In this document: one piece after another, positions 478 to 22,680 of the stretch | Layout: every line of letters starts with the position of its first letter | How positions within the stretch are numbered: position 1 is the stretch's first letter | Virus record (IMG/VR): IMGVR_UViG_3300009405_000178 | Coordinates: 1 to 23,569 of that record | Length of the DNA stretch: 23,569 nt | Reading direction: 5' to 3' (one strand) | DNA from: a virus | Translations under genes and position numbers: made by a program | The notes under the pieces: model-generated | Databases searched by the model: none | What the model saw: the letters and a program-made list of their open reading frames with translations, nothing else | What the model was told of the DNA's origin: nothing

Positions 478-3400
478 ATGCCAAAACAAATATATAAAAT
501 AGAAAACTTTCATGGCGGGTTAAATAGTAACTCTGACCCTAGAGATATTGCTGATTCACAATCGCCTGATTGTAATGATGTTGCTATTAATAATGTAGGA
601 CGTATTACGTTAATGGGTAAAGATAGCAATACTGGTAATGTCTTGGACTATGGTAATGATTTACCATGTGTGTATAATTCTGGGTTATTTTCATATTCAC
701 ATGATTATAGAATATCAGACGGCTCAGAAGGAAGTGAGTTTTTATATGTTAACTATGATGGGACTGATGACGTAGAAGTAACTGGGTCAGATGGGGATAA
801 CTTAGATTTTTCTCTATCTTCTAGTGTCCCTGGTATACCTCCTTCATACTCATTAGCCGATGGAGATTTAAGGGTGTCTGATACTGGTCTAACGAGAGAC
901 ACTAAATGGTTTGGTCATATAAAAAGCGCTAGATGGGATAATGTATCTAAACTAGCATTAACTTCTCCTGGATGGACATCTTCTGACGCATCCCTTTTAA
1001 AACCAACTGCTGGTAATTGTATAGTTAGCACTCCAGTTGCAGGGACTGAAACAGGTAGTACAAATCCAGACTGGGACAATACAAATAATGGAGGTGTTAA
1101 CAGCTCAAGCTCTGAGTTGATTGGGCCCGTTTCAAACGGCTTAATTGATGATGCGGCTATTAATTTGAGGGTTGGAGTTGACTATACTAGTAATGCTATA
1201 TACGACACTTCAACGTCTTATCACAAATGGAACTCATCAGCTGATAATCTTAATGGGTCCATGTCGGATGATACTGATGTTATACCATTCATTGGCACAA
1301 CTGCTGACCCGTCTACGGTTGTAAAAGTTTTTGATAACTCAGTTACTGGTACTTTAAACGGAATTGGTCTTTATAATGCAGGTACTGATAATGATTTTAC
1401 CATTGATGATGACTACGGGATACTGATTCCAATATATTTTATATCGTCTGAGTTTACAAAGCTTGACAAAGTTTATATAAAAGTTGGAACTATTGTAGGG
1501 TCAAGCGACGATGTTTATACTTGGAATATACCCTCAACAGATTTAAAAGCAGATATGTGGAATTTGATTTTGTTAACAACTGATAATTACACAGGGAAAA
1601 TAGGAACCCCTAATGATTTTGGTTCGCAGTTCAACTCCCTTGAAATTGACGTATACCAAAAGTCTGTGCATTCATCGGATGTTGTTCCTAATTATTATGT
1701 ATCTGGAGTATCGACTATACCTTATAATATGACACAGGGTTTTCCCATTGGTAGTTATACATTTCATTATACTTGGTTATACGACAATATTAAACAGGAG
1801 TCATTACCATTCCAGCTTGAAAAACCTTCATTAACTAATACAACTGGTGTAGATTTTAAAGGTGAAATTAATATTGTTAATGGAAATATTCCATTAACAT
1901 TTCAAGTTTATTTAAGCAAAGGTAATGGTTCGTATGATATAAATAAACGTATTACAGGGTCTCGTATATATTTTCAAACTGATGCTAGTGATGAGTATTA
2001 CTTAATAGGTGAGGTAGATTTTGTTAAGGAGCATGGAAATGATATGGGAGGGTTTAAGTTTTTAGCTGATTCAGATGTTATTGATTATACATTTGCTAAT
2101 GCGGTTGATAGTAATGGTAATTTAAATGATACTGGAGTTTCTCAGTTAATACAGCCTGTTGGAGCTAATGGAGTGGACACTTTTAAAACTATTAATGGTT
2201 TTTCTACTAATACTAATGATATAACAGCTAGGTATAAAACATCTACGTTACAAGGTCGAAGAATGTTTATAGGAAATGTTAAGCATGATGCAGATGGTGA
2301 TGGTACTTCGGAATTATATGGTGATAGAATGTTAAAAAGCGTTGTTAATAAATTTGATACATACCCATCAGAGACATCTATTGTCGATGTTGCTATAAGG
2401 GATGGTGAAAGCATTGTTAAGTTAGAGTCATACGCTGATAGGATACTTCAATTTAAACAGAAATCATTATATATTGTTAACGTATCTGAGACAGTAGAGT
2501 TTTTAGAAGATATATTTAGGCATAAGGGGGTTAATAATGAATACCATGTAGTTAAAACAGACTATGGTGTCGCTTGGTTTAACCAATATGGTGCTTATTT
2601 TTATGACGGGCAGAATGTTAGTAATTTATTAGAAAATAATGGTATACCAGTTATAGATATTGATACATGGCAAGCATTTTTAGGACACAAACAAGTCTTA
2701 ACAACTGTAAGTGAGACAGTTAATACATCTGAACTAGAGATTGACGTGACTGATTATTCATTGCTAACATCAAAAAGATATATACAAATAGGTAGTGAAC
2801 ATATGTATATAACAGCAGTTACTAATCCCACAATTACTGTGGTAAGGGGAGTCCAAAATTCAAGTATAGATGCCTATGATAGTGGCAGTGATAATATATA
2901 TGATTCAATAAATAATTCATCTATAGGATATATACCAAAAACAAGGCAGTTGATTATATCTAATGAAGATGAAAATGTATACATATATGATTTTACATTA
3001 AAAGCATGGACAAAGGGAACTGATAGATTAACATCATCATCATCTGCAAGTACAAGAACAAACTTTGTTTTAAATCAAGACGATGATTTAATATATGGAG
3101 GAGCTGAGGATTATGAAGTAGTAGAATATAAGTGGAGTGGGTCACCTTCGTCATCAGCTGGAACATATTCATATAAAACAAGAGATATTGATTTCGCCAA
3201 CCCTGGTATAAGAAAAAAGATTTTTAGAGTAAGAATATCATACAAAGGTGATGGGTCAGGTGTAACAGTTGCATATGCTGTTAATGGGGACACAAATACA
3301 ACGGCTAATTTTTATGGTACAACGTCAAGTGGTGTTCCGACAGGCGCTGAGGATTCAACTCCTTTGTTAAATCCAGGTACGGATGATTGGTTACATTGTG

Positions 3401-3525
3401 AACTAAAACCATACGCATCTATTAATAATATATACAGTTTTCAGCTTATTTTTGGAGGAACAGCTGCTTCTGATTTTGAAATAAATGATATATCAGTAGT
3501 TTACAGATTAAAACCAGTTAAATAA
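478..3525 (+). CDS. Large virion structural protein, probable tail nozzle/DNA-stabilization type
   Basis: 1015 residues, beta-rich, without signal peptide or membrane segment. The N-terminus (FHGGLNSNSDPRDI, about residues 12-25) has the form of marine-phage structural proteins whose first strands read 'F.GGLN...PRDI'. The core includes LQGRRMFIGN (591-600) and DRILQFKQ (654-661), followed by a stretch ending in GAYFYDG. These resemble the repeated strands of beta-propeller nozzle or stabilization proteins (P22 gp10 / T7 gp12 functional class). Residues about 742-800 form a separate module with IQIGSEHMYITAV and VVRGVQNSSIDAYDSG, similar to the 'E.m.Vt..RG..gT.A..H..G' element of phage tail proteins. 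Roughly residues 100-420 are low-complexity S/T/D/N-rich and may be an inserted or surface domain. It begins the virion operon directly after the 17-bp element. The structural role is well supported; the exact subunit is inferred. Confidence 0.7.
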   Translation: MPKQIYKIENFHGGLNSNSDPRDIADSQSPDCNDVAINNVGRITLMGKDSNTGNVLDYGNDLPCVYNSGLFSYSHDYRISDGSEGSEFLYVNYDGTDDVEVTGSDGDNLDFSLSSSVPGIPPSYSLADGDLRVSDTGLTRDTKWFGHIKSARWDNVSKLALTSPGWTSSDASLLKPTAGNCIVSTPVAGTETGSTNPDWDNTNNGGVNSSSSELIGPVSNGLIDDAAINLRVGVDYTSNAIYDTSTSYHKWNSSADNLNGSMSDDTDVIPFIGTTADPSTVVKVFDNSVTGTLNGIGLYNAGTDNDFTIDDDYGILIPIYFISSEFTKLDKVYIKVGTIVGSSDDVYTWNIPSTDLKADMWNLILLTTDNYTGKIGTPNDFGSQFNSLEIDVYQKSVHSSDVVPNYYVSGVSTIPYNMTQGFPIGSYTFHYTWLYDNIKQESLPFQLEKPSLTNTTGVDFKGEINIVNGNIPLTFQVYLSKGNGSYDINKRITGSRIYFQTDASDEYYLIGEVDFVKEHGNDMGGFKFLADSDVIDYTFANAVDSNGNLNDTGVSQLIQPVGANGVDTFKTINGFSTNTNDITARYKTSTLQGRRMFIGNVKHDADGDGTSELYGDRMLKSVVNKFDTYPSETSIVDVAIRDGESIVKLESYADRILQFKQKSLYIVNVSETVEFLEDIFRHKGVNNEYHVVKTDYGVAWFNQYGAYFYDGQNVSNLLENNGIPVIDIDTWQAFLGHKQVLTTVSETVNTSELEIDVTDYSLLTSKRYIQIGSEHMYITAVTNPTITVVRGVQNSSIDAYDSGSDNIYDSINNSSIGYIPKTRQLIISNEDENVYIYDFTLKAWTKGTDRLTSSSSASTRTNFVLNQDDDLIYGGAEDYEVVEYKWSGSPSSSAGTYSYKTRDIDFANPGIRKKIFRVRISYKGDGSGVTVAYAVNGDTNTTANFYGTTSSGVPTGAEDSTPLLNPGTDDWLHCELKPYASINNIYSFQLIFGGTAASDFEINDISVVYRLKPVK

Positions 3526-5473: not shown

Positions 5474-6430
5474 ATGCCAAAGTTAAGTAAATATAAAGCA
5501 GCAGGAAGAACTGCAAGTTCATATCAAAAGAGTATTGGTGATGTAAATAAGCTAGGTCTAGGATTACAACATGCTCAATGGAAAGGCGAAGAACAACGTT
5601 CTTTATATGGTGCTATAGGAGCTACAACTGCTAATATACTAGGTATAGTTAAAGAACAAAAGATGATGGGTGAGCTTAATAAGCTAAAAGAATCAGCTGG
5701 TAATCTTCCTGGTGTAGTAAAAGAATCACAAGAATACCAACGTGGTGGTAAGATTGGTGAGATACTAGGGATGGGTAAAGGTTCTAGAGATGTATATAAA
5801 AGTGCTTTTACAGGAGAAGAACTGTCAGATAGTACGCTGTATGGAATTGGTAAGATGGAATCGTTGTCGCCAGGGGCTACACGGTATAGTGACTATAAAG
5901 AAATATTGAGCGAAGAGTTTCCAATAAAGGAAGGCAGTGGTAAATATAGAACAGCTACAGAATCTAAAACAACTCAATTTGAACCTCCTCAACAGCCTAG
6001 CGCAGAAGATAATGTTATTAATGCCTTTTCAAAATCAGATAATAACAATATTTTTAAAGAAGAAATTGATTTTGATAAGACAAGATCATTAATTAGTATT
6101 GCTGAATATGAAGGAAAAGGAGGAATTGTTTCTGGTGAGAATTGGGCTCAGATGACAAGACCAGCTATAGAGACAGCGTATAAGTCCATTATTGGTATTG
6201 ATTTAGGACCAAATAAAATTGACCCTTCGGTATTAGCAAAAGATGTTAATTCATATGATAAATTTGTAAATTCTTATATAGGTACAGTCTCTGATATTAT
6301 AGGGAGTAAAGACCCTAGAGAAATAGCAATGGCTTGGTATTCACCTTATGCATATAAAAAAGATTCGTCTGAATGGACTAATGAACAGTCTAAAATTTTT
6401 AAATCAAGAGATACAAGGTTGCCGAGGTAA
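5474..6430 (+). CDS. Virion/ejection-type protein with possible degenerate lysozyme-like C-terminus
   Basis: 318 residues. AGGAA at 5466-5470 is only 3 nt from the ATG, so the ribosome site is weak. The first ~100 residues are helical, polar and Ala/Gly/Gln-rich (YGAIGATTANILGIVKEQ), like small internal virion proteins. A proline/glutamine linker (EPPQQPSAEDN, about 168-178) leads to a C-terminal domain of about 120 residues. That domain has SIAEYEGKGGIV near its start and DPREIAMAWYSPYAY near its end. An early Glu and a late 'A.AW....Y' recall transglycosylase/lysozyme folds carried into the cell envelope by ejection proteins, but the usual AYNAGPG-type motif is not intact. The enzymatic role is therefore tentative. 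It starts the ejection-type block. Confidence 0.5.
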   Translation: MPKLSKYKAAGRTASSYQKSIGDVNKLGLGLQHAQWKGEEQRSLYGAIGATTANILGIVKEQKMMGELNKLKESAGNLPGVVKESQEYQRGGKIGEILGMGKGSRDVYKSAFTGEELSDSTLYGIGKMESLSPGATRYSDYKEILSEEFPIKEGSGKYRTATESKTTQFEPPQQPSAEDNVINAFSKSDNNNIFKEEIDFDKTRSLISIAEYEGKGGIVSGENWAQMTRPAIETAYKSIIGIDLGPNKIDPSVLAKDVNSYDKFVNSYIGTVSDIIGSKDPREIAMAWYSPYAYKKDSSEWTNEQSKIFKSRDTRLPR

Positions 6431-6435
6431 TTAAT

Positions 6436-7008
6436 ATGAATATTCTAGACACAACATCACAAGCAGCTTCAGTAGGCTCATTGTTAGGTATGTCAAATCC
6501 TTTAATGTTAGGGCTTGGTGTTGGAATGGCAGGTATTAGTGCATTCAGCAGTATGAAACAAGCAGAAGAAGAAGTAGATATACTAGGTGATCAAATATCT
6601 TCATTAAAAGGTGCACAAGGCTCTCTAGATGAGTCATATGGTCAAAAGAAGGGACTAGCCACTGATAAGTATTCAGAACAGTTAGAACAACTATCGTATG
6701 GAGCTGGTCAGTCTTTATATGATATATCTACCCAAGGGAGTCAAGCTGCTGGCAGAACTGGAATGGCGAGGTCTGGGACTGTAGAAACTAATATAGAAAG
6801 AGCTCGTGGGACTGTTAGAGATAAATTTGGGTTTGAACAAACAGGATTAGAAAGCATGTTAGGTGAGAGTTTAATGAATATAGAAGAGTGGTACGGTGCA
6901 CAATCATCTGATTTAAGTACTCAAATGGAAGGATTAAAATATCAAAAGGAACAAGCTCAATCACGTACTGGTTTAGGTGGTTTTGTTAAATCATTTTTAG
7001 GAGCATAA
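6436..7008 (+). CDS. Small internal virion/ejection-type protein
   Basis: 190 residues. GAGGT (6424-6428) lies 7 nt ahead of the ATG and overlaps the end of the previous gene. Residues about 13-37 are a glycine-rich hydrophobic segment (LMLGLGVGMAGISAF). The middle is helical with Q/E/A/S-rich heptad-like spacing. A motif around AGRTGMARSGTVETN (about 104-118) followed by RARGTVRDKFGFEQ is typical in style of small T7 gp14-like or marine podophage internal proteins. No enzymatic residues are apparent. Its size, hydrophobic N-terminus and place before two longer helical proteins and a giant match the gp14-gp15-gp16 order of T7-like ejectosomes. That is position-based inference, not sequence homology I can demonstrate. 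Confidence 0.55.
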   Translation: MNILDTTSQAASVGSLLGMSNPLMLGLGVGMAGISAFSSMKQAEEEVDILGDQISSLKGAQGSLDESYGQKKGLATDKYSEQLEQLSYGAGQSLYDISTQGSQAAGRTGMARSGTVETNIERARGTVRDKFGFEQTGLESMLGESLMNIEEWYGAQSSDLSTQMEGLKYQKEQAQSRTGLGGFVKSFLGA

Positions 7009-7009
7009 G

Positions 7010-8203
7010 ATGGCTGGTTTACCAGATATATTAAGTGCATATAGAGAAGGTCTTGCAAGTGAAAGACAGTTTCGCACTAGTCAAATGCAGATGTCACTAT
7101 CGCAGTTACAATATGAATCAGAAAGAGCATTTAGAGAAGAAGGCAGACGTAGAGAAGATGCGTTTAGAGGTCTAACATTAGCTAACCAGACTATGAAAGA
7201 AAGTCAGGCTAAAGACGCCTCATCTATATATTTATTAATGAGGAGTTTAGATTTTATTGACCGTGACAGCGATGGCAAAATAAATAAATTAAAATTAAAT
7301 AAAGCAAAGCCACATGGGTTTAGCGATATCGAAGCTCAATCTATCTATAATATGGTACTTATGTATGAAAGCGAAAGCCCTGTATTACAACAACAAGCAC
7401 AGTTTGCTGCTACAAACATAGGTAAGTTAGTGTCTGCATATAAGGATTCATGGGTATCAACTGGCAAACAACCTGATTATTTAAAAGCTTTATCTAAAGC
7501 TGGTATATTATACGCTGGCGATGAAGTAGATGGTAAAGTTGTATATGATGAAACTAAATTTGACTTATCATATGAACCATTTGTCAATGTGTCTAAAGCA
7601 ACTGATGTATTAGCTAATATATCTGATGAATTAGGTGAAATGGCTCGTGGTGACTATGAAATACAACGTGGTATTGGTATTGATAGAAAGTTTACTAAAC
7701 AACAGTCATCTGATGATGTTGCTAGTAGAATGGCTGATATTGTTGAAGCAAATTTAGACAAGTTAGAAACTGATTTAGACTATGATGATACAGATAGCGA
7801 ATACATTGATAGCGTTAGGGAATTAAGAATGTTGAAGTCACTAGTTAAAAAAGGGTATGGTGGTTTTGATGATGACATTAAAAATTTAACTATTGAGATT
7901 GGTAAACATAAAGAAAATTTGGCTTTAGCAAAAGAAAATAAAAGAGTTGCTGAAATTAAAGATATGATGAACTATATATTTGAAACAACGGGAATGGAAA
8001 GAACATCTGAAAATGAACAGTTAGCGCTTGGAAGGGCTCTTGATTTGCTTGGCTCAAAAGGTTATCAATATGAAAGAGCATATTTCCTAGGACAAAGAGA
8101 AACGGGTGGTGATGAAGATAGACAAATACATCAAGAAGTGAGAGATTTGTCTAGTGTCGAAAGGGACATTTATCAGTTGTCAAGAAGTCTTACTAGGCGT
8201 TAA
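7010..8203 (+). CDS. Internal virion/ejection-type protein with an EF-hand-like loop
   Basis: 397 residues. A clear AGGAG at 6999-7003 lies 6 nt before the ATG. Residues about 15-65 are a charged Q/E/R/S-rich amphipathic helix or coiled coil. Residues 84-95 (DRDSDGKINKLK) match a calcium EF-hand loop at positions 1, 3, 5, 6 and 8. Position 12 is Lys instead of Glu, so calcium binding may be weak or lost. The rest is mostly helical and acidic, with no catalytic motif I recognise. It follows a gp14-like small protein and precedes the giant protein, so an ejectosome component is the best reading. A scaffold or tail-associated protein is the alternative. Confidence 0.5.
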   Translation: MAGLPDILSAYREGLASERQFRTSQMQMSLSQLQYESERAFREEGRRREDAFRGLTLANQTMKESQAKDASSIYLLMRSLDFIDRDSDGKINKLKLNKAKPHGFSDIEAQSIYNMVLMYESESPVLQQQAQFAATNIGKLVSAYKDSWVSTGKQPDYLKALSKAGILYAGDEVDGKVVYDETKFDLSYEPFVNVSKATDVLANISDELGEMARGDYEIQRGIGIDRKFTKQQSSDDVASRMADIVEANLDKLETDLDYDDTDSEYIDSVRELRMLKSLVKKGYGGFDDDIKNLTIEIGKHKENLALAKENKRVAEIKDMMNYIFETTGMERTSENEQLALGRALDLLGSKGYQYERAYFLGQRETGGDEDRQIHQEVRDLSSVERDIYQLSRSLTRR

Positions 8204-8206
8204 AAT

Positions 8207-11200
8207 ATGCCAACAGATAACCTAACTGCAAGGGTCAGACAAGAGCTTGAACGTAGAGGCAAAATTGTATCTGACTCACAAATAGAACAAATACTAAAAG
8301 ACAATGAGATTACTACAAGTAGTCGTAATGTCGGGATACCGTTTTCTGCGGGTCCTATTTCAACTAGAGATAAAAAAGAAGTAAGGGGTGATAATGTATT
8401 AGACCTTGTAGGGTCTATGTTATGGCATGGCTTTGATACAGCTGCTTTTGGTTTACCAGGTATTGCATTAGGCGAAGAAGCTCCTTACCAATGGGAAGAA
8501 ATGGGTTCGTTTGGCAACGTAGGGGCTGTGTTAGGTGAAGCTGCTGGTTTCCTTGCCCCACTAGGCGTTATTGGTAAATTAACTGGTAAAGGAGTAGCTG
8601 CCGCAACTAAATATGGAACAAAGGCTGCTAAAACAAGGGCTGTGGACGCTGCTAAATTATTTGCAAAACCAGAAGATGCCGTTAGAACAGGTAAGGCAGT
8701 TGAAAAAGCATTTAGTACAAAAGCATTTAAAAGAACAATCCCTAGTTATGAAATAAGCACTGCACAAATAGAAGCTGCTCGTATACAGATGGGTGGATTA
8801 ATACGTGGTGGATTAAAGAAAGAGTTCCCAAAAGCTGGTGACGATATAATTGAAGGTATTACAAATTCTGCATTAGAAGGTCTTGCTAAAGAAGGAGTCC
8901 ATGTAAACAAAATTGGTAAGTGGGTAGAGAGGTCTTTAAATACTAAATTTAGCATTGCAGATAAAAGTAAAATAACTGCTTATATTGGCAAGGTTGCTGA
9001 AATGACTTCTAGTTTCTCATTGTATAATCTTATTGATGATGGTATTAAATCAATGGCAGTTGAAGGACATGAGTTTGACCCCGTTGGTGATGTTGGCAGT
9101 GCATTCATGTTTTCTGCTTTCTTACCAGCTGTTGAAATGATACCATATGGTGGTAAAATGAAGATATTTAAGACTCGCAAAGATGTTAAAAAGGGTCTTA
9201 ATAAGATTAAAACAATGGACTATGATAAATTAGAGGTCAGTGAAATTAATGCATTGTTTAAAATTGTATCTAATAATAATAAACTAAAGCATTCTACATT
9301 TGCTGTAGAGGCTGCTAAAAGATTCGGTAATGCATTTAAAGATACACCCGCGGATAAAGCAGAAGCCGTTAAACATTTAAAAGCATTATTTAGTAATTTT
9401 AATCCAAGTAAAGTATACGCTGAGCTACGTAAAGAGATTGGACTTGACCTTGTAAAATCTATACCAAGAATGACGATAGGGGCTGCTTACTTTAATTCTT
9501 CTACGTTACTTGATGAAAATATGTTAAGAAATGTTGACCCTGAAATATTAGGCGCTCATTTACTTGTAGGTGCATTATTTACACGAAGATATAAGCCTTT
9601 GTTTCCAGAACAATTCCCTACATTAAAAGATTTTGACAGGAAAGTTGAATTTCTAAAAGTGCTTGGTTTTGACGGTGAGCAAATTAAATACCTCGGAGAA
9701 GCATATGGTTTAAGAGGCGATTTAGGCGCTGCCTACACGGGTCTCCTCTCTCATCCAGTAATGTCTCAAATATCAGAGGCAATTAATACTGGTGAGCATA
9801 AATTACAGAGTAAAGAAGGAGTTGGTGGAGTTGGAGAATTACAAAGCGAACCACATTCCCTTATACAAAGAGTTCAAAATTTATATGTACTTGCTGAAAA
9901 CTCAAGAAAAGTTGGGAAAGAAGATGCAGATGTAAATCCAGATGTTAGATTAAAACATCTAACTGACAGCCAATTAACAAAATTAGATGCTAAATTAAGA
10001 AAGATTAAATTGCCAGATGGTGAATTTTTAAATGAGAGTAATTTTCATAAGTTTCGTGAATCAGTGTTTAAAGATATTTCAGAAGGAACGTATGAAGGTA
10101 ATATGAAGACTCTTCTCAATATTGCGAAAGAAATTGGACTACAGACTGATTATAAAGATGGTGACCCTCTTGATATGACTAAATCTATTGGATTTGCTTC
10201 AATTAGAGGATTAAGCAGAACTGACGGGAACGATAACTATACTTCAATTAGAGAGTTTCAGAAATTAAGAAACAGAATGGAGGCTCTTGGGTTTATACAT
10301 GAAATTAGACAAACAGCTGAACAAAGTTTAATAGCTTCTCATATAAATGCTAAAGAAAAAGGCGTTTTTGCAAGGGAACAATTGGACAACCTTGTAAATA
10401 AAATTCGTGAAGATAACTATAACCTTGAAGAAGGAACCGTTGTTACTATTGACCCAACTGAAAATCAATTTCTTAATGCCCTTGGTAACTACAAGCGTGA
10501 GCATTCTTTAAATACCTTGTATAATTTTGTAGAAGGAAGGATTGAGAACCTATCTAAATCCGATGCAGCTGTTTATAATGAAATATTAAATGTTCTGCCT
10601 GAAGGTACAAAAATTGGTAAAATTACAATATCAGACGATATGACACAAAAGGATTGGAATAAATTAAAGACTGATGGTGATTATTTTGAAGTAGAAGAAG
10701 GAATTAAATCTCTTTCTGAAATGATGAATATTAGTAGCCGTGGTGAATCAAGGTCTGTTGATATAGAATACGAAGATGCTAAAACAGTTATGAGTGTGTT
10801 AAGGCGTGGTGGATTTAAAGTTGATGTAGACATGGCAAGAACATTTGAAAGCCATTACTATAAAAACTTACTTAGCTCTATGGAGATTGGTTCAAAACAC
10901 ATAGCTATTATTGAACAAGGTCTTACTTTTAAAGCATTTAGATTAGAGCAAAGAAATGGTAAACGAGTATTAGTAGTCCCTGATAAAAAAGCAGTTGAGC
11001 GTATGCTTTCAAAAGAAATGGGCAAAGAAGAACTTATTCAGGAGATGGAACGATACGATGCTATTATGTCTGATATGAGGGCTATTAATGGTTCGTTTAT
11101 GAGAGTTGAGACTGAAATGCCATTGTCAGAATCGTCTTCTGGTGACATGCATAGTTTTATTTATGAAACATATGGGATTACTTCAAGGTTTGATAAGAAT

Positions 11201-14200
11201 ATTGTTGGTGACTATAGAAAAGTTAGAGATGCTGGTATTGATAGAGTTGATACATTAGCGTCTGTTAAAGAAGTATTAGAAAAAATAATTGATTACACAG
11301 ACCCTAATAGAGAAGAAGCAAAGAAATTAACATTAGAAGAGGTTAGTGATGTAATTAGTTCTTTACGGTCTGTACAGCGTACATCTGGTGATAATATGTC
11401 AGGAGAATTAAGTCTTCTTGTAGACCAATTAGTTAAAAAGATGAGTTTAAAGAACGTTGGTGAAGATGGAATGATGGCTGTTCATGGAGACCAAGTATTA
11501 GCATTAGAGAGGGCATTGACCCCAGAGTTTGATAGAATTAATTATGTAAATGAAGTTGTATCAAAGATTATTTTTGGATTAGATAATTATGTTGGAGACA
11601 GGATACATGCTAAAAAGAGGATGGACTTTCTTGTCGCTAGGATGACTAAACAGTTAAGAAAAGCTGGTATTGAAGTAACTGATGGTGAAAACCTAAACCA
11701 ATTATCTACAAAATATTTTAATAGCGGGCTGTCTATAAAAGAGAAAATAGATAAAAGGATAAATATAACATTAGATGATTTTGCTAATGAATTAAATAGG
11801 CATATTGACGCATGGGCAAGCTCTATTTCAGATGTTGAATATTATGAAAATGTACATAGGTACGAAAAGCAATTATCTGATAGTTCATTAAAAGATAAAG
11901 ATACGGATATATTTGCAAAGTCAAGTAAAACAGTTAGTAAACTTAGTGATTATAATGAGTTCTTTAGCGCGAAAGAATTTGCACCATTTAAAGAAATGAT
12001 GAAGCTTTATATTGCAGAAGGTGATATATCATCAACATCAAAGCTCATTGATGCGATTATATCCGAAGCCGACAGAACATATGGTGAGATACATAAAGAC
12101 TCGCCTAAATCAGCTAAAGAGGAAATGAGGGCATTTAAACATTCTGTTATTAAAGAATTGTTGTTTGGCGTCGCTGGTACACATACAGTTAGATCGGTTA
12201 AGTTAAAGTACGCAGGAATGAAAGATGGTAAACCAAGATATTTACTTACTGAATCAAAGATGGTTGCTGCTGATAATGGAGCTTCTAAAATAATTAGAAA
12301 GTTTGAAAAAGCAGGTGTGTATGTTGCAATGGCAGAAAGCGAAGGTATTATACTTGACGCTTTTGGAAAGCCAACTAGTGTAAGTAATATATTTGCAGAA
12401 AAAGATATAAATACAAGATTCTTTAATGATGCTGATTTAACACAGACAAGGGAGTCTGCAAAAGAGAGGGAAGAAAAAGGCTTATTAGCCCCTGAAGGCT
12501 CTAAATCAATAAGAATACCAATTAGCTTTAGCACTCAGTTAATTGTTGAAAAAAGGGGATATAGTAAAGCAAAAGGAGTATTAAAACAATGGTATAATAG
12601 TAAGATTGCTAAATTAGAAAAAGCTGTTAAAGATAATCAGATAAGTAAAGATGTTGTAGATAATTTTAAAACATTATATAGTTCAGTATTAAAAGAAGGT
12701 GAGTTTACAGATAGTGAACTAAAGCAGTTTGTAAGGGCTATGTATTGGGATAATATGAATAGCTCGTCTTTTAATAAGTTAATGGAATCTCCAGTTACAG
12801 GAAGTGAAGTAAATCCGATATTAGCTTCCATGTTTAAACGTTTAAGTGTATCAGAAGGGATAGGGACTAAAGTTATTGGTAGTGACACAGCTTTAAAGGC
12901 AATAAAGGAAGCAAATAAAAGCGGTGAATACAAAGGCGAACTATTAACATCTGAACAGTCTAAATCTATAGATTATTATTTAGATAAGGATAAATTAGAA
13001 GTATTGTCAATAAATGATTCTAAAATGTTTGATTCATTTGGTATTGTTGAACGACAACTAAAAGAACTTGCTAAAAATAGTAATTTAAAAGCTGATGCTA
13101 ACAATACACTTGGCATTGCAAAGACACTTATGGAAAGTTTAAGAAACAAGTCAGGATTAGATGGCGCAACTTATGTTGGTACTCATATGTGGAATTTATC
13201 ATTGTTGCAAAAAGGTAGGGAGGGCAATGATGGTTCAGGAGGCATAAAACAATCTATTTCATATAATGATGGTGTTAATACGATGTTGCTTAAACAGAAC
13301 TTTACTTATGACCCCAATATAGCTGCTGTTATAGATGCTCTTGGAGTTGATATACTTACGTTTGATAGTGCTGCTAAAGTATACGCTAAAAAGCAATTAG
13401 AGCCTAATAAACAATGGGAAGGTGAATCATTACCAATATTTTTTAGTAGGACTATAGGGACAGACGCTAAAGCATTAAGAGACAATGGTAATATACAAGA
13501 TATTAAAATGGAAAATATTATGTTTGTTAAGTCAGAAGATAGACATAATGTTACAAATATTACATATTCATTATCAGAATATTTAGATAGAGCAGGGTAT
13601 ACACAGTATATAAAAGATTATGCAAATTATGATGGCATCTTATCATCTGGTAATGAAATGCTATCAGGTATAGTGTCAAGAGGAGGTCAGAGACTTGGTA
13701 TATCATCGTTTGTATTAAATGCACTCGCTGAAAGCGGTAATTTAGTTAACGGCTCTACGAACTTATTTGTTAAAATGATGGTGTTAGCTGGTGTTGACCC
13801 TAAATCAAGTCTTATATCTGATAATGTTAATAGAGTTATATATAGACAAATAATTAACAGAGTAAGAAAACCACAGACAGATGGAGGTTCATATTCTACT
13901 CTGATTCCATTTCTTGAAGGTTCTCCGCCTGTTTATAATAAAAGTAGAGTCCAAGTAAGATTTGGAGGTAAGAAGCTTGCGCATGCTGATGGGAGTATAA
14001 AAGTACAAAACTTTGATAAACTTCAATATATAGTAGATGTTGGAGGTCGTGAAGTTCTTATTGGTAAAAATACAAAAGGTAAATGGGAAGTTACTGGCGA
14101 AGAAAAACTAAATATGTCGACTTCCGAGAAAAAGATTTTAAATGAAAAGAAACTGTTGCTAAATAAATTACCAAAAAGATTTAGCAAAGGAGTTACATTA

Positions 14201-16798
14201 TCAGTATTATATGAACACCTTAAAAATGAAGGTATATCTTTAGATTCTCTTTCACTTCGTATGCCTAACCTAGCCGCTGATGTTGCAATACATAAGATTG
14301 AAGGCTTCTATTCTCCAGAGATGGGTAATGTTGTTGGTATTAATGTTATGGATTTAGCAACAAAGCACCAAGGCGATTTTGACGCTGATATGGCTTTTAA
14401 TTACCATGATACAAAGTTTGAAATAACGAATGCAGTCGCAGGTCTTGTTCCAAGAAGGATGGATGCATATGTGTATGATTATACTGATTATGATTTTAAA
14501 GATATATTTGCCAATGGTAATGAGTTAAGACCAGTCGGTAGTTTACCAGACCCTATAGACCCAATGGATTTACATATTGAAAATTATAATGCAGGTAAGA
14601 ATAATTTTGGTCAAATAAAAAGATTGTCAGCTGGTATAAATTCATTAAATAGAATTAATATGATGATGGACAATTTGCCGATGTTAGAACTAAAAGGTGA
14701 GAACATGAATGCGTTCTTACAGAGGTTAGCTACTACATTACAGAGTTTAATTGATACAACTCAACGCCCTAATTTCACGAATAAAAGCACTGCTAATGAA
14801 TTAAAGAGATTTATACTATTTGGGGATGAACCTAGTCGTTTCGATATAAAACTCGAAGATTATAATGAATCTAGTAGTTATAGTGGAATATTTGATTTAC
14901 CTAAGGTAGAAAATAATACAACAAGGGAGATTTATAAAGATAGCATTATTGAGATTATAGACACTCTTGGCAGACCTTCTCGTATTATGAGTGATTTATT
15001 TGATGGTTCAGGCAGGAGAGTCCCTGACCAAAATGACCTTATTAATATGCGTAGAGAAATAGGCTTTCTTGGTTCTAATCCAAGTCAATATATATTTAAT
15101 AAGCTTGTACGTAGATATAGAGGCGATAAAAGAGATGCATTGTTAAAGATGTTTTATGACTTCCCAGAAGGGACTACGACAGATGCATTAAGAAAAAGAA
15201 TATTAGAGAATAATTTTGGCAAAGATGTCCAAGTCGAAAAGTATCCATTTTCTTTTAATAAATCACAACTAGGTGAAATGTATGACTCAACACCAGCTGG
15301 ATATGTTTTAAACAGGATTGGTAATGTTAAAATGTCATATGAGAGGACAGCTGCTAGATATGGAGCTTCGACAAAGTCGCTTGCAAGAAACCTTGATAAC
15401 ATAGAGAACTTTATTGCCCTTTCAAATGCTAAAACACATGAAGAAATAATGAAAGCTTTAGAAGAAGGCGACTTTGAAAATGGTATTTCTATTGCTTTAA
15501 CTGGTGATATATTTAATACAAAGATTTCTGATATTAAGTATGCTGAAAGGTATTCTACTGCTTATTTCCTTCTTGGCAGGAATGCTTCTAGCATAAGACA
15601 GTCGTTAAGAAGAAATGGTAAATCGAATGATGGAACAAGGGTTTTCTTGACAGAAAAGCTACATCGTATAAACGCTATAATGGAACATATGCGAAACAAA
15701 GAAGATGGCTTAATTGGTGAAATGATAAAGGGAGAGTCTGATAAAAACATATTAAATCGTTTTGATTTAAGAGAGATTAATATTACTAAAAAAGCAAAGT
15801 ATATCCCAAATATGGAGAATAATAGGGTTTATTTATACAAAGAGTCAAGGACTAAAGGCAAGTGGGAACAAGTTGGGGAGATATCCCCTAAATCAAGAAA
15901 AAGACTATACCCTGGTCGGTACGTTGTTCTTAAAAACCCGATTAGATTTGAGGCTATGAATACATCAGATGTTATTGATTCATATGCGATGTTAAGCGTT
16001 GTAGGTGATATACAAGTAAACGATATTAGGGGGTTTAAGGGTGGTGAATCTCAAGAGACATCTTTTATTGCTGACTCTAGGATATTAAAATCACAGATAA
16101 GCGCATTATCACAGCAGGCGTATAGAATGAGCGAAGGTCACCCTGAGGGGTCTGAAAATTGGTCACTTGAAAAAGAAGCTGAAGATATGTTGGTTGATGC
16201 ATTTATGAAAAGAAACGTGCCTGAAGCTAGGATGGATGTAAATGTATTAAGTGAATCTGAATTAAATACAATACATGATGTAATTGGGTATATGATTAAA
16301 CCAGAGCCTGTATTTGGTAATGTTACATATATACAAGACAGAAACTTTGCTCTACCTTCATTTAAAATGAACAAGCGTATGTCTAATGCAATGTTAAGGT
16401 GGCTTATTAACAATGGGCATGACTTGATATTCCAAGATATTATGAAAGCATATGGCACAAACTTTAGACGTAGATACGATAATATTCCAGACCTTCAATA
16501 TTCAGCTATGTTTTCATCAGGTATACACAGGAGCAGAAATGTATCTCACGAGGGTAAATCAGAAGTATATAATATGATTGCAGATACTAACCCTGACTTC
16601 TTATATACACCTGCTATTTCAGAAATACTAAAGAATGAAATGTCATATAGAAGTGCAAAGGTTGCAGATGTTAAAGATATTAATGGAGATTTATATAAGA
16701 TTATGAGATTTGGTAAATATGAAGATATAAATGTAGGTCTTGATGTATTTCTTGACCCTAAATCGACTAAAAATGATTCAAACTTGGATTGTTACTAA
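8207..16798 (+). CDS. Giant virion protein with a two-barrel (beta/beta-prime type) RNA polymerase core
   Basis: 2863 residues, the longest gene here. The start has only a weak AGG (8195-8197), so translation may be coupled to the previous gene. The N-terminal ~320 residues contain Gly/Ala-rich hydrophobic stretches (about 106-132 and 298-318), like membrane-penetrating ejection or polyvalent phage proteins. Residues 1652-1730 hold a candidate beta-like barrel: DGATYV, K1696 and a DSAAK motif ending at K1724. Residues 2018-2067 hold RMPNL followed after about 35 residues by GDFDADMAFNYH, the DxDxD metal-binding loop of beta-prime-type RNA polymerases (D2057, D2059, D2061). LQSLIDTTQRPN (2178-2189) follows, as in crAss-like giant polymerases. 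The triad is intact, suggesting an active enzyme. The large remainder is helical and unassigned. Virion packaging and injection are inferred from position after ejection-type genes. Confidence 0.75.
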   Translation: MPTDNLTARVRQELERRGKIVSDSQIEQILKDNEITTSSRNVGIPFSAGPISTRDKKEVRGDNVLDLVGSMLWHGFDTAAFGLPGIALGEEAPYQWEEMGSFGNVGAVLGEAAGFLAPLGVIGKLTGKGVAAATKYGTKAAKTRAVDAAKLFAKPEDAVRTGKAVEKAFSTKAFKRTIPSYEISTAQIEAARIQMGGLIRGGLKKEFPKAGDDIIEGITNSALEGLAKEGVHVNKIGKWVERSLNTKFSIADKSKITAYIGKVAEMTSSFSLYNLIDDGIKSMAVEGHEFDPVGDVGSAFMFSAFLPAVEMIPYGGKMKIFKTRKDVKKGLNKIKTMDYDKLEVSEINALFKIVSNNNKLKHSTFAVEAAKRFGNAFKDTPADKAEAVKHLKALFSNFNPSKVYAELRKEIGLDLVKSIPRMTIGAAYFNSSTLLDENMLRNVDPEILGAHLLVGALFTRRYKPLFPEQFPTLKDFDRKVEFLKVLGFDGEQIKYLGEAYGLRGDLGAAYTGLLSHPVMSQISEAINTGEHKLQSKEGVGGVGELQSEPHSLIQRVQNLYVLAENSRKVGKEDADVNPDVRLKHLTDSQLTKLDAKLRKIKLPDGEFLNESNFHKFRESVFKDISEGTYEGNMKTLLNIAKEIGLQTDYKDGDPLDMTKSIGFASIRGLSRTDGNDNYTSIREFQKLRNRMEALGFIHEIRQTAEQSLIASHINAKEKGVFAREQLDNLVNKIREDNYNLEEGTVVTIDPTENQFLNALGNYKREHSLNTLYNFVEGRIENLSKSDAAVYNEILNVLPEGTKIGKITISDDMTQKDWNKLKTDGDYFEVEEGIKSLSEMMNISSRGESRSVDIEYEDAKTVMSVLRRGGFKVDVDMARTFESHYYKNLLSSMEIGSKHIAIIEQGLTFKAFRLEQRNGKRVLVVPDKKAVERMLSKEMGKEELIQEMERYDAIMSDMRAINGSFMRVETEMPLSESSSGDMHSFIYETYGITSRFDKNIVGDYRKVRDAGIDRVDTLASVKEVLEKIIDYTDPNREEAKKLTLEEVSDVISSLRSVQRTSGDNMSGELSLLVDQLVKKMSLKNVGEDGMMAVHGDQVLALERALTPEFDRINYVNEVVSKIIFGLDNYVGDRIHAKKRMDFLVARMTKQLRKAGIEVTDGENLNQLSTKYFNSGLSIKEKIDKRINITLDDFANELNRHIDAWASSISDVEYYENVHRYEKQLSDSSLKDKDTDIFAKSSKTVSKLSDYNEFFSAKEFAPFKEMMKLYIAEGDISSTSKLIDAIISEADRTYGEIHKDSPKSAKEEMRAFKHSVIKELLFGVAGTHTVRSVKLKYAGMKDGKPRYLLTESKMVAADNGASKIIRKFEKAGVYVAMAESEGIILDAFGKPTSVSNIFAEKDINTRFFNDADLTQTRESAKEREEKGLLAPEGSKSIRIPISFSTQLIVEKRGYSKAKGVLKQWYNSKIAKLEKAVKDNQISKDVVDNFKTLYSSVLKEGEFTDSELKQFVRAMYWDNMNSSSFNKLMESPVTGSEVNPILASMFKRLSVSEGIGTKVIGSDTALKAIKEANKSGEYKGELLTSEQSKSIDYYLDKDKLEVLSINDSKMFDSFGIVERQLKELAKNSNLKADANNTLGIAKTLMESLRNKSGLDGATYVGTHMWNLSLLQKGREGNDGSGGIKQSISYNDGVNTMLLKQNFTYDPNIAAVIDALGVDILTFDSAAKVYAKKQLEPNKQWEGESLPIFFSRTIGTDAKALRDNGNIQDIKMENIMFVKSEDRHNVTNITYSLSEYLDRAGYTQYIKDYANYDGILSSGNEMLSGIVSRGGQRLGISSFVLNALAESGNLVNGSTNLFVKMMVLAGVDPKSSLISDNVNRVIYRQIINRVRKPQTDGGSYSTLIPFLEGSPPVYNKSRVQVRFGGKKLAHADGSIKVQNFDKLQYIVDVGGREVLIGKNTKGKWEVTGEEKLNMSTSEKKILNEKKLLLNKLPKRFSKGVTLSVLYEHLKNEGISLDSLSLRMPNLAADVAIHKIEGFYSPEMGNVVGINVMDLATKHQGDFDADMAFNYHDTKFEITNAVAGLVPRRMDAYVYDYTDYDFKDIFANGNELRPVGSLPDPIDPMDLHIENYNAGKNNFGQIKRLSAGINSLNRINMMMDNLPMLELKGENMNAFLQRLATTLQSLIDTTQRPNFTNKSTANELKRFILFGDEPSRFDIKLEDYNESSSYSGIFDLPKVENNTTREIYKDSIIEIIDTLGRPSRIMSDLFDGSGRRVPDQNDLINMRREIGFLGSNPSQYIFNKLVRRYRGDKRDALLKMFYDFPEGTTTDALRKRILENNFGKDVQVEKYPFSFNKSQLGEMYDSTPAGYVLNRIGNVKMSYERTAARYGASTKSLARNLDNIENFIALSNAKTHEEIMKALEEGDFENGISIALTGDIFNTKISDIKYAERYSTAYFLLGRNASSIRQSLRRNGKSNDGTRVFLTEKLHRINAIMEHMRNKEDGLIGEMIKGESDKNILNRFDLREINITKKAKYIPNMENNRVYLYKESRTKGKWEQVGEISPKSRKRLYPGRYVVLKNPIRFEAMNTSDVIDSYAMLSVVGDIQVNDIRGFKGGESQETSFIADSRILKSQISALSQQAYRMSEGHPEGSENWSLEKEAEDMLVDAFMKRNVPEARMDVNVLSESELNTIHDVIGYMIKPEPVFGNVTYIQDRNFALPSFKMNKRMSNAMLRWLINNGHDLIFQDIMKAYGTNFRRRYDNIPDLQYSAMFSSGIHRSRNVSHEGKSEVYNMIADTNPDFLYTPAISEILKNEMSYRSAKVADVKDINGDLYKIMRFGKYEDINVGLDVFLDPKSTKNDSNLDCY
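13154..13396 (+). other. Candidate DPBB-A (beta-subunit-like) segment of the giant polymerase
   Basis: Residues 1650-1730 of the giant protein read GLDGATYV, then a Gly/Asp-rich turn, then YNDG, MLLKQNF (K1696), then GVDILTFDSAAK (ending K1724). In crAss-like giant polymerases as I remember them, a 'DG' segment, a Lys-bearing strand and a 'GiD.l.f.SA.K' strand come in this order upstream of the DxDxD barrel. The two lysines would correspond to the nucleotide-binding lysines of bacterial beta. The match is by eye and weaker than for the second barrel. Confidence 0.5.
14234..14416 (+). other. DPBB-B (beta-prime-like) catalytic segment with DFDAD metal-binding loop
   Basis: Residues 2010-2070 of the giant protein. 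R2018-MPNL corresponds to the NRAPTL strand of beta-prime. AIHKIEGF and the hydrophobic VVGINVMDLAT correspond to the following strands. G-DFDAD-MAFNYH corresponds to A-DFDGD-QMAVH. The distance from R2018 to D2057 is 39 residues, against about 35 in E. coli beta-prime. All three Mg-binding aspartates are present. This ordered set, not the DxDxD triplet alone, is the reason for the call. Confidence 0.75.
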
Positions 16799-19419
16799 TG
16801 GGCTGCGCTGTACAAACATTATCACAATTAGAGACAAAAGAAGGTCTAAAAACATTACGGTCATTATTTAATGGCAACACTGTAAAAGACATAGATGGGA
16901 AGACAAGGTCTATCGGTAAAGAAATATACGGTAGTACAAAAGATGGCTTTGGTGAAAAGATGTTTGAAGAAATTGTATGGAAGTCTACGTATAAACCAGC
17001 AGATGAAGGGTTTGCTACATTTGATAAAGGTGACTTTAGAAGGGTTGCAAATGAAATAGAGAAAGAGGCTAAAAGATTAAGGAATCCAAAATTAAGTATA
17101 CTAGAAAGGCTTGGGTTTGTTAAGCGTGGTGTAATGGGTAAATTTGCAGTTACGAGGTGGATGAATAAACATATAAATCTTTCTACAAACTATGAAAGGA
17201 CTAAATTTAATACATATTTAGTTCATAATAATAGAATATCAAGTTTGCTACGGGCTGAATTAATAATTCGTGACCCATCACTTAAATATAGATTTCCATG
17301 GATTAAAGCAGGAAGTGATTTAGATAAATTTGAAAGAAAACTGATATTTGAAATGTCTAATTTAAAGTTATTAAAAGGCGATGCGAGAGAGGCTAAAAGA
17401 GCCGAAATTGAGGATACTAGGAGTAAAATTGCAGAAGCATTAGTTAAAGACGGAGGCAAGGTTTTAACTGAATTAGTTACTTGGCTACAAACAACACCTG
17501 ATAAAAATGGTATTAGATATAAAGAAAATGGTGAGACATATTCGACGAACATAAACAAAGCAGGTAACGAAGCAAGGGCATTGCTTAACGATATGGGAGG
17601 TGTTCTTGTTAATGGTTTAAGGAATCATAAAAAAGCATTAAAAATATCATTTAACAACTTATCAACTAGTAGATTAAAGAAATATTTTAAAACAGTGGAT
17701 AAACATATTAACAGTATTGAAAAGCGTATTGAAAAAGGTAACTACTTCCCTCATTTTATAACAGAAGGATTAACAACGATTGAAAGAGTTATGGATAAAA
17801 TAGACAGTGCGGAGTCTATTAAATCTAAAAATGTATTTCTTGGTGACCTTGAGTCTACGTTTTCAGCTGTAAGGCAGTCAATTTATTCAACTCCTCAATC
17901 AGCTAAAGAAAGAAGTGCTTTTGAATATGATAATTGGGTAAAGAGTCCATTAACTGTATTAAGAAAATATTCTATGGATGCCATTTCTTTTAACAGGACT
18001 AATTACTTAAAATCTATTTATTTAGAAGGTATGAAGAACTTACCTAAAGAGGGTGAATCATCTAGAGGGTTAAATGATTATCTTAATGATGTGTTTACAT
18101 TAGCAGGTCATGGTTACAAAGATAGACCAAATTGGGTAAATAAAACTGTTCGTATATTGACTGGTTATGAGTTCTTTTCTAAAATAGGATTTGGAGTTGC
18201 GACAGCTGCTCGTAATACAATGTCTGGTTTATATTATATACAGTCTGTAGGCAATAGAGCGTTCTTTAACTATTTAAGAGACCAAAATAAAGATAGTGAA
18301 GAATATAAAACAATGATGCATAGAATAGAAGGTGAGCAGGGATTTAGATTTGAAGATTTATCAAGCCCTATATTTACAGAAGGCTTACTGCCAACAGAGG
18401 GATTAAGAAGTGATGTTCGTGATATGGACATTATAATCGACCCCCAAACAAAGCAACCATCATTGCAATATAAAACAGATAAAGGATGGCAAACATTTGA
18501 TAGTATATTAACCAGAGCAACAGGTGCTGGTGCAATATTTCAGAAAGTTACTGAGAACTTCCTTCGTAAACACATGTTTAGGTTTTCATTTAAACAAAAA
18601 TATAATGAGCTTATAGATGGTGGTGTGCAGAAAAGTAAGGCAGAGATGGGAGCAAAAACATACGCTCTTGATATAGTAAATAAATATGCATTTGAATATT
18701 CAGCTTCACAAAAAGCACCTATAGTTGGTGGTACAAGTAAAAATTTAGGAGCATTTGGACAAGTAGCATTTCAATTTATGCACTTTCCAATGTCATTTCT
18801 TCAATTACAGTCTGAAATACTGCGTAATTCTAAAGATGCTGTTATAGCAAAACAATGGAGTAATCCAGATATGTATATCCCTCTTAAATTTGCAGGGTTA
18901 TATTTATTTACACAGCTAGCGAGTGGCATTGGCAATGTTAATTTTAATAGGTTAATGGAAAATGATACAGTTGACCGTATTAAAGATTTAGTAGATGTTG
19001 TTAGTGGTAAAGGTGATATTAAAGGTCGTGGGTATATTGGACCTGCTGTTGGTGACTTGTTTTTTCTAGCGACTATGAAAGACTGGGTAGAATTGCCAGA
19101 TAATGAAATAACAAATCTAATCGTTGGATATAATAATGCCTATAAATTAACAGATGAGCAAAAAAGCATGAGACTGTTGTCTACGTTTAATGTAGAAATG
19201 GCTAAAATTCCACGAAATTGGAAAGCGTTACAGAATGGTACTATATGGAATGTTATGATGCATGAATTTGGTCTATACCCTAGTTCAATGACTCGTGAAA
19301 TGAGAAAACATCAGCCATTAAAACCTTTATTTCCCAAACAAAAGAAAAAGAAGAAAAAAGTTAAATCTGATAAACAACAAGATGAATTAACTAAACTGTA
19401 TAGGGCTATGGGAGTCTAA
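16798..19419 (+). CDS. Large membrane-active virion protein, companion of the giant polymerase
   Basis: 873 residues from ATG 16798, which overlaps the giant's TAA (TAATG). An in-frame TTG at 16789 also exists, but the ATG is preferred. The N-terminal ~400 residues are helical and very basic (many K/R). Residues about 458-484 (KIGFGVATAARNTMSGLYYI), 653-670 (FGQVAFQFMHFPMSF) and 695-714 (PLKFAGLYLFTQLASGIG) are hydrophobic or amphipathic. The KYAFEYSASQKAP stretch (about 629-641) followed by a Phe-rich segment resembles the C-terminal part of large phage polyvalent or ejection proteins. The C-terminus carries a run of six lysines (about 849-854). No catalytic motif is seen. It could be a physically separate C-terminal half of an ancestral giant, contributing DNA binding and membrane passage. 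That is inference from layout. Confidence 0.55.
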   Translation: MGCAVQTLSQLETKEGLKTLRSLFNGNTVKDIDGKTRSIGKEIYGSTKDGFGEKMFEEIVWKSTYKPADEGFATFDKGDFRRVANEIEKEAKRLRNPKLSILERLGFVKRGVMGKFAVTRWMNKHINLSTNYERTKFNTYLVHNNRISSLLRAELIIRDPSLKYRFPWIKAGSDLDKFERKLIFEMSNLKLLKGDAREAKRAEIEDTRSKIAEALVKDGGKVLTELVTWLQTTPDKNGIRYKENGETYSTNINKAGNEARALLNDMGGVLVNGLRNHKKALKISFNNLSTSRLKKYFKTVDKHINSIEKRIEKGNYFPHFITEGLTTIERVMDKIDSAESIKSKNVFLGDLESTFSAVRQSIYSTPQSAKERSAFEYDNWVKSPLTVLRKYSMDAISFNRTNYLKSIYLEGMKNLPKEGESSRGLNDYLNDVFTLAGHGYKDRPNWVNKTVRILTGYEFFSKIGFGVATAARNTMSGLYYIQSVGNRAFFNYLRDQNKDSEEYKTMMHRIEGEQGFRFEDLSSPIFTEGLLPTEGLRSDVRDMDIIIDPQTKQPSLQYKTDKGWQTFDSILTRATGAGAIFQKVTENFLRKHMFRFSFKQKYNELIDGGVQKSKAEMGAKTYALDIVNKYAFEYSASQKAPIVGGTSKNLGAFGQVAFQFMHFPMSFLQLQSEILRNSKDAVIAKQWSNPDMYIPLKFAGLYLFTQLASGIGNVNFNRLMENDTVDRIKDLVDVVSGKGDIKGRGYIGPAVGDLFFLATMKDWVELPDNEITNLIVGYNNAYKLTDEQKSMRLLSTFNVEMAKIPRNWKALQNGTIWNVMMHEFGLYPSSMTREMRKHQPLKPLFPKQKKKKKKVKSDKQQDELTKLYRAMGV

Positions 19420-21840: not shown

Positions 21841-22680
21841 TTAAAATATTGTAGATTGTACATATATCGGAGGCTGATAATTTGTAATAACAAGTTCTGT
21901 TCTTTCTTTTTTATCAGATGTTCCTGCATATACACATTTAATTTCATTTATTATATAATTTTTATATAATGTTTTTATTTCATCTCTGTCGTCATAGCTA
22001 ACCATAAACAGCCCATTTTTACTATTTATTTCGTTACATAAATTTCGTAAATCATTATGCATGTTAGATGTAAAATCATGAAAGTAATAGTCTTTTCTTT
22101 CACCAGCAACTACATATGGAGGGTCCATATACCAGAAGTCACCTTCTTTAGGTTCGTATCTTTTAACAAGTTCTCTAAAGTCAAAGTTTTCTACAATAAC
22201 TCCATCTAGCTGTTTTTTAGACCATTTTATTTTTTCAAGTAGTTCAGAGTGCCATATACCATTCTTTTCAGATTTTGAAAATGGGTTATATGGGTTTCTG
22301 TTAAATGAGTTTTTAATAACATAATAATAAATAGCAGCTCTACGTGCATCAGGTGTTTGTACTTTTGCTTTGGTTGTCATTATTTCCTTACGGAAGTCAT
22401 CAAATAACTTCCTTGACCGAGGTAATAAATCAACGTATTTACTAAATTCATCGAACCTTTCGAGTACTGAAATATACAAATTTACTATATCATTATCAAA
22501 GTCATTTACTATATTAAACGGTGCTTTTTCTTTACGAAAATACATACTAAGACCACCTGCAAACATTTCTATATACCTATTATGTTGTGGTATCATGGGA
22601 ACTAACTGTTTAGATAGCTCCCATTTACCACCATAATATGGGAAAATTACAGGACATCTTTCAAATCCTATATGTGCCAT
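21841..22680 (-). CDS. dam: D12-class DNA adenine N6-methyltransferase
   Basis: 279 residues, starting one base after the previous stop, without a visible Shine-Dalgarno site. The AdoMet site is FPYYGGKWELSK (13-24) and YIEMFAGG (36-43). NDFDND (59-64) fits the third AdoMet-contact region, and the catalytic motif IV is DPPY (186-189). This is the D12/Dam family, which methylates adenine at N6 in short sites such as GATC; the actual target cannot be read from sequence. No restriction enzyme gene lies beside it, so it is an orphan phage methylase, most likely protecting phage DNA from host restriction or marking replication status. It is complete and of normal length. Confidence 0.93.
   Translation of the reverse strand: MAHIGFERCPVIFPYYGGKWELSKQLVPMIPQHNRYIEMFAGGLSMYFRKEKAPFNIVNDFDNDIVNLYISVLERFDEFSKYVDLLPRSRKLFDDFRKEIMTTKAKVQTPDARRAAIYYYVIKNSFNRNPYNPFSKSEKNGIWHSELLEKIKWSKKQLDGVIVENFDFRELVKRYEPKEGDFWYMDPPYVVAGERKDYYFHDFTSNMHNDLRNLCNEINSKNGLFMVSYDDRDEIKTLYKNYIINEIKCVYAGTSDKKERTELVITNYQPPIYVQSTIF

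Follow-up and report, generated by a model that had tools for sequence, protein, structure and literature searches.

A giant virion-block protein of a podovirus-like phage is predicted to be a crAss-like, single-chain, two-barrel RNA polymerase

What does a protein of 2863 residues do in the virion gene block of a podovirus-like phage when one of its segments resembles the catalytic loop of a cellular RNA polymerase? The question is raised by IMG/VR virus record IMGVR_UViG_3300009405_000178, which was analysed as a complete record (23,569 bases, hereafter the window); as the contigs of its relatives go up to 51 kb, the record is probably a genome fragment. The original prediction had placed a beta-prime-type loop at 14234-14416 and read the protein as a single-chain, two-barrel polymerase of the multisubunit type. 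Translation of the open reading frame (ORF) gives ISLDSLSLRMPNLAADVAIHKIEGFYSPEMGNVVGINVMDLATKHQGDFDADMAFNYHDTK for this segment (residues 2010-2070), and R2018, D2057, D2059 and D2061 as well as the R2018-to-D2057 spacing of 39 are as claimed, the R-x-P...DxDxD pairing occurring only once within the protein. The gene and its motif are as follows.

8207..16798, + strand: giant ORF, predicted virion RNA polymerase (vRNAP) of 2863 amino acids (ORF call; 61% identical homologue)
14258..14389, + strand: catalytic motif R2018-x-P-N-L ... D2057-F-D2059-A-D2061, with three metal-binding aspartates (translation; family conservation)

Profiles, conservation and gene order all support the polymerase reading. 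The giant ORF very probably codes for a DNA-dependent RNA polymerase of the crAss-like virion type with two barrels in one chain, on which the conserved residues, the match to crAss profiles, the spacing of 39 and a predicted structure converge; the enzyme would be packaged in the virion, ejected and used for early transcription.

Searches of viral contigs recovered 13 distinct IMG/VR relatives with 20-61% identity to the giant protein (L001, L003, L065, L066, L067, L068, L069, L070, L075, L078, L081, L082 and L083; L075 is identical to L076 and counted once, and L083 ends before the Asp motif). The complete ones span 2864-3015 amino acids, and the closest, a homologue of 2864 amino acids with 61% identity, retains the gene order unchanged. 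Residues K1681, K1696, S1721, A1722, K1724, R2018, P2020, D2057, F2058, D2059 and D2061 are invariant wherever the relatives cover them, while residue 2060 changes from A to V in the more distant ones. The conservation of the three aspartates, on which the original prediction had staked itself beforehand, therefore extends to every homologue covering them. Of the 13 distinct motif-bearing members, 12 have an R-to-D spacing of 39 and L070 has one of 40, and the invariant residues of the family cluster in two peaks, at ~70-490 and ~1460-2300. No relatives of the giant protein were found among 50,697 phage records or among 84,980 bacterial and archaeal genomes.

The second of these peaks contains two regions that match the double-psi beta barrels (DPBB) of crAss-like enzymes; the original two-barrel claim is thereby refined, the second barrel (DPBB-B) lying N-terminal to the loop first noticed.

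13154..13384, + strand: DPBB-B barrel, residues ~1650-1726, with invariant K1681, K1696, S1721 and K1724 (crAss profile match; conservation)
13871..14476, + strand: DPBB-A barrel, residues ~1889-2090 (crAss profile matches, P 3e-5 and P 1e-5; structure matches)

The reference enzyme phi14:2 gp66 corresponds to gp077 in GenBank KC821624 (2180 amino acids; matched via its length, its crAss relatives named 'putative RNA polymerase' and its motif), and hhalign of the family against this single sequence picks the catalytic stretch RIPNQG...GSDFDIDKMY. Against a profile of 11 crAss-like enzymes the barrels match separately (DPBB-B P 5e-5, DPBB-A P 3e-5), and none of 100 column shuffles scored as high. 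The hidden Markov model (HMM) comparison proposed by the original prediction was extended to a larger profile of 69 crAss-like enzymes taken from IMG/VR, which the family core (residues 1600-2330) matches with E 5.2e-9 (probability 95.9) along 358 columns, both barrels in the right order. The match persists at E 5.3e-7 when L070, the most crAss-like member, is left out; the reversed profile gives E 0.24, the top score among 40 shuffles is 21.3, compared with 82.5 for the true match, and the N- and C-terminal regions of the family give E 0.44-0.62. In the opposite direction, the family HMM finds crAss enzymes with E up to 2e-7, the best reversed sequence standing at 0.008.

The motifs follow the same order in both groups, NAQSYLST, GVKP, LLK, IDILTTESAAK, RMPNL and DFDxD in the family corresponding to TDAQ, QPLKP, P..K.S, IDMVTFESAVK, RIPTQG and SDFDIDK in the crAss enzymes. 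Across 80 aligned sequences, R2018, P2020 and all three aspartates never vary, and the conservation of K1681 and K1724 is at least 90%; the alignment of K1696 with the crAss lysines is less sure. The giant protein can confidently be called homologous to the crAss-like enzymes on these sequence grounds. E. coli beta-prime has NADFDGD and an R-to-D spacing of 35. As the spacing is 39 in 79 of 79 crAss sequences where it is measurable, and not 35, the nearest kin is the crAss-like vRNAP and not bacterial beta-prime; the original likening to E. coli beta-prime was right in kind but pointed to a more distant relative. Outside the barrels, residues 1-1300 and 2110-2863 gave nothing trustworthy over the reversed background when compared with crAss001 and phi14:2 virion proteins. 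A match of residues 1300-1640 to phi14:2 gp079 (1e-4) was discarded, as it was made up of two small segments that do not follow the right order.

Structure prediction gave a divided answer to the comparison with phi14:2 gp66 that had been suggested at the outset. The second of two AlphaFold models, covering residues 1630-2330 and built on 80 aligned sequences (67 of them crAss-like), has a mean predicted local distance difference test (pLDDT) score of 65, with mostly 74-94 over ~1920-2010, and its best PDB match is indeed 6VR4 (phi14:2 vRNAP), with Z 6.8 over 470 residues. The rows below 6VR4 are almost all RNA polymerase largest subunits, from cells and from viruses, aligned at ~1870-2090, and maize RDR2 matches the DPBB-B end. 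This model backs the two-barrel fold, short of an independent proof. A Foldseek search of BFVD with the same model returned strong matches to two unnamed predicted viral proteins, A0A516L9L2 (E 5e-13) and A0A516M3R5 (1.5e-9), which are perhaps further family members.

Several points weigh against the polymerase reading. The first AlphaFold model, of 1111 residues and based on 14 family sequences only, folded neither barrel and its Foldseek matches were meaningless. The second is not independent because its alignment included crAss sequences; its catalytic loop reaches a pLDDT of only ~45-80, and its Z of 6.8 is moderate (<8) and within the warning range of the tool. The giant protein has no sequence match in Pfam, PHROG or PDB sequences, and no profile match to a bridge helix, trigger loop or clamp was obtained downstream of DPBB-A. 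Its packaging and activity are predicted by analogy.

Two further regions of the protein stand out by conservation.

8207..9676, + strand: N-terminal conserved region, residues 1-490, with a membrane-like hydrophobic stretch at 105-125 (invariant-residue peak; hydrophobicity)
14564..14656, + strand: long helix following DPBB-A, residues 2120-2150 (second model; conserved G2135 and L2140)

The hydrophobic stretch, VGAVLGEAAGFLAPLGVIGKL, fits membrane insertion, and residues 1-490 are a candidate envelope-inserting or ejection part, while the helix is a candidate bridge helix.

The gene neighbourhood is that of a virion block.

478..3525, + strand: gene of 1015 amino acids heading the virion block, conserved in relatives (no convincing family match)
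5474..8203, + strand: three genes (318, 190 and 397 amino acids) immediately upstream of the giant ORF (gene order conserved)
16789..19419, + strand: partner gene of 876 amino acids, immediately downstream of the giant ORF in all members examined (no database match)

The record and its relatives share the order of a protein of 860-1015 amino acids (split into two frames in G001), one to three appendage-like proteins, a few small proteins, the giant ORF and a protein of ~880 amino acids; the 318-, 190- and 397-residue products are candidate ejected proteins. Beyond the ~880-residue gene the opposite strand encodes a RuvC-like protein (by eye) and a DnaB-type helicase (PF03796, PF00772), followed by an adenine methylase-like protein (by eye) and DUF932. 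The longer relatives G001 (51 kb), G002 (51.7 kb) and G004 (43 kb) encode a podovirus-like set made up of small and large terminase, a P22-like portal (PF16510, 4e-47) and an SU10-type major capsid protein (PF17236, 3e-18). No protein of these relatives, portal, terminase and capsid included, rose above the reversed-sequence background against crAss001 and phi14:2 virion proteins, compared as single sequences, and the best-ranking matches to the terminase come from Campylobacter and Vibrio phages, with 24-25% identity. On account of both results the phages carrying the giant protein are placed, with reservation, outside the known Crassvirales; the crAss001 portal is likewise annotated as P22-like, and a very distant link to Crassvirales is conceivable.

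The likely working of the protein is drawn from phi14:2 and crAss001, and this applies to packaging, ejection, early transcription and the DNA template. In crAss phages the polymerase and partner giant proteins are virion cargo and presumably leave the particle in a partly unfolded state, together with the DNA or before it; a phi14:2 vRNAP is reported to synthesize RNA in vitro and to account for rifampicin-resistant early transcription (PMC10136315, PMC10172136). By analogy, the giant protein would be an ejection protein fused to a polymerase, produced together with the virion genes and packed into the head, and would be ejected with or before the DNA; the conserved N-terminal region may help to form the passage across the envelope. 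DPBB-B would give the lysines and DPBB-A the three aspartates holding the catalytic Mg2+, and the polymerase, most likely ejected alongside the DNA, would transcribe the early phage genes with no need for the host enzyme. A bolder proposal, which we put forward only tentatively and consider doubtful, is that short-tailed phages have long shared the crAss-type virion polymerase as a module, which would then not be a crAss hallmark; in this separate lineage one chain would build part of the envelope passage (with its conserved N-terminal 490 residues) and also transcribe the incoming DNA at the exit of that passage, transcription thereby helping to draw the genome in.

The alternative that survives best is a crAss-type polymerase that is made in the cell and not injected, as is the case for P23-45 gp64. 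Non-virion two-barrel enzymes do exist in phages (PMC10770324), but the gene sits in the virion block amid structural-type genes and the polymerase is fused to a non-polymerase part of 1300 residues, as in some crAss vRNAPs, whereas gp64 is small (616 amino acids) and absent from virions; we consider this improbable. Less probable still is an inactive polymerase descendant retained for a structural or ejection role. Large ejection proteins are indeed required by podoviruses and this is a giant protein of the virion block, yet the catalytic residues are all invariant down to 20% identity, whereas an enzyme without activity should have lost some of them.

How far the motif can be trusted by itself was assessed in 2.9 million viral contigs. 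The string GDFDADM is not diagnostic: it occurred in 35 contigs, nearly all with unrelated proteins and mostly one recurrent protein, and it was dropped as a family search string as its matches are mainly unrelated. Many of these hits (L005-L007, L009, L010, L012, L014-L018 and others) carry GDFDADM near the end of an abundant viral family of 600-1034 amino acids (GSDLRNIGVSTGDFDADM), which is T4-type portal-like by eye only and unrelated to the polymerase. The fuller pattern R-x-P-x-L-39-GDFDxD was present in 25 contigs, about half of them polymerase-like (phage beta-prime-like proteins and members of the giant-ORF family) and the remainder chance; in L042, L046, L054, L059 and L062 the DNA pattern spans an in-frame stop and is pure chance. 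Within the window itself the adenine methylase-like gene (21841-22680, - strand) holds R-x-P ... NDFDND in the same order, a decoy which shows that the motif pair arises easily. A chance likeness in an unrelated virion protein, to which the unrelated GDFDADM proteins and the empty single-sequence searches of known families might seem to point, is nevertheless negligible, because the motif residues are conserved across the whole family and the matches of the two barrels to crAss vRNAP profiles stand clear of their controls.

The originally supposed rarity of phage single-chain, two-barrel polymerases did not hold up; crAss-like phages have them widely and a few other phages are known to carry them, so the novelty is lower than first estimated. 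The giant-protein group is new as a family and probably new as a phage lineage, while the polymerase type is already known. Through it the known range of the crAss-type virion polymerase widens to phages whose capsid and packaging proteins differ, at 10-18% identity to the crAss enzymes, a distance where standard family databases detect nothing. With its 14 members and clearly separated domains, the family may help to trace the origin and spread of giant ejected polymerases, and to ask if DNA entry is coupled with transcription by the fused N-terminal region.

Related annotations were also met. Flavobacterium phage Fpv1 (L098), whose record is not classed in Crassvirales, has a crAss-type polymerase core in BOX09_gp33, a 13.2 kb gene whose annotation reads just virion structural protein (25% identity to phi14:2 gp66, E 1e-21; aligned motif DYDID). 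Crass-like polymerase-core genes in L089, L090, L093, NC_055868, NC_055872, NC_055896 and NC_055898 bear the RefSeq names DNA helicase, exonuclease V, DprA-like and nuclear pore complex protein, and are probably misnamed giant fusion proteins.

Among known systems, the vRNAP of coliphage N4 and the Schitoviridae has a T7-type single-subunit fold and not a two-barrel one. It is similar in its working as a giant ejected podovirus polymerase (PMC12633501). YonO of SPbeta and QDE-1/RDR are likewise single-chain two-barrel polymerases (PMC5467207, PMC10770324), but unlike the giant protein they are not giant virion proteins. In bacteria beta-prime is a subunit separate from the beta barrel, with a spacing of 35, whereas the giant protein has DFDAD/DFDVD, a spacing of 39 and both barrels in one chain. 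Thermus phage P23-45 gp96 is a two-barrel vRNAP within a giant virion protein, fused to the tape measure protein (PMC10770324), and the giant ORF is comparable, although the family gave no profile match to gp96 or gp64, each represented by a single sequence. The closest system remains the crAss-like vRNAP, represented by phi14:2 gp66 (PDB 6VR4) and crAss001 gp50. The giant-protein family differs from it in sharing only 10-18% identity with it, in having DFDAD/DFDVD, mostly without the K that ends crAss DFDIDK, and in core-flanking regions with no detectable match to crAss001 or phi14:2; the two are alike in being encoded by a giant virion-block gene of a short-tailed phage, in a single chain with DPBB-B preceding DPBB-A, and in the R-x-P..39..D-F-D-x-D, K-P and S-A-x-K motifs.

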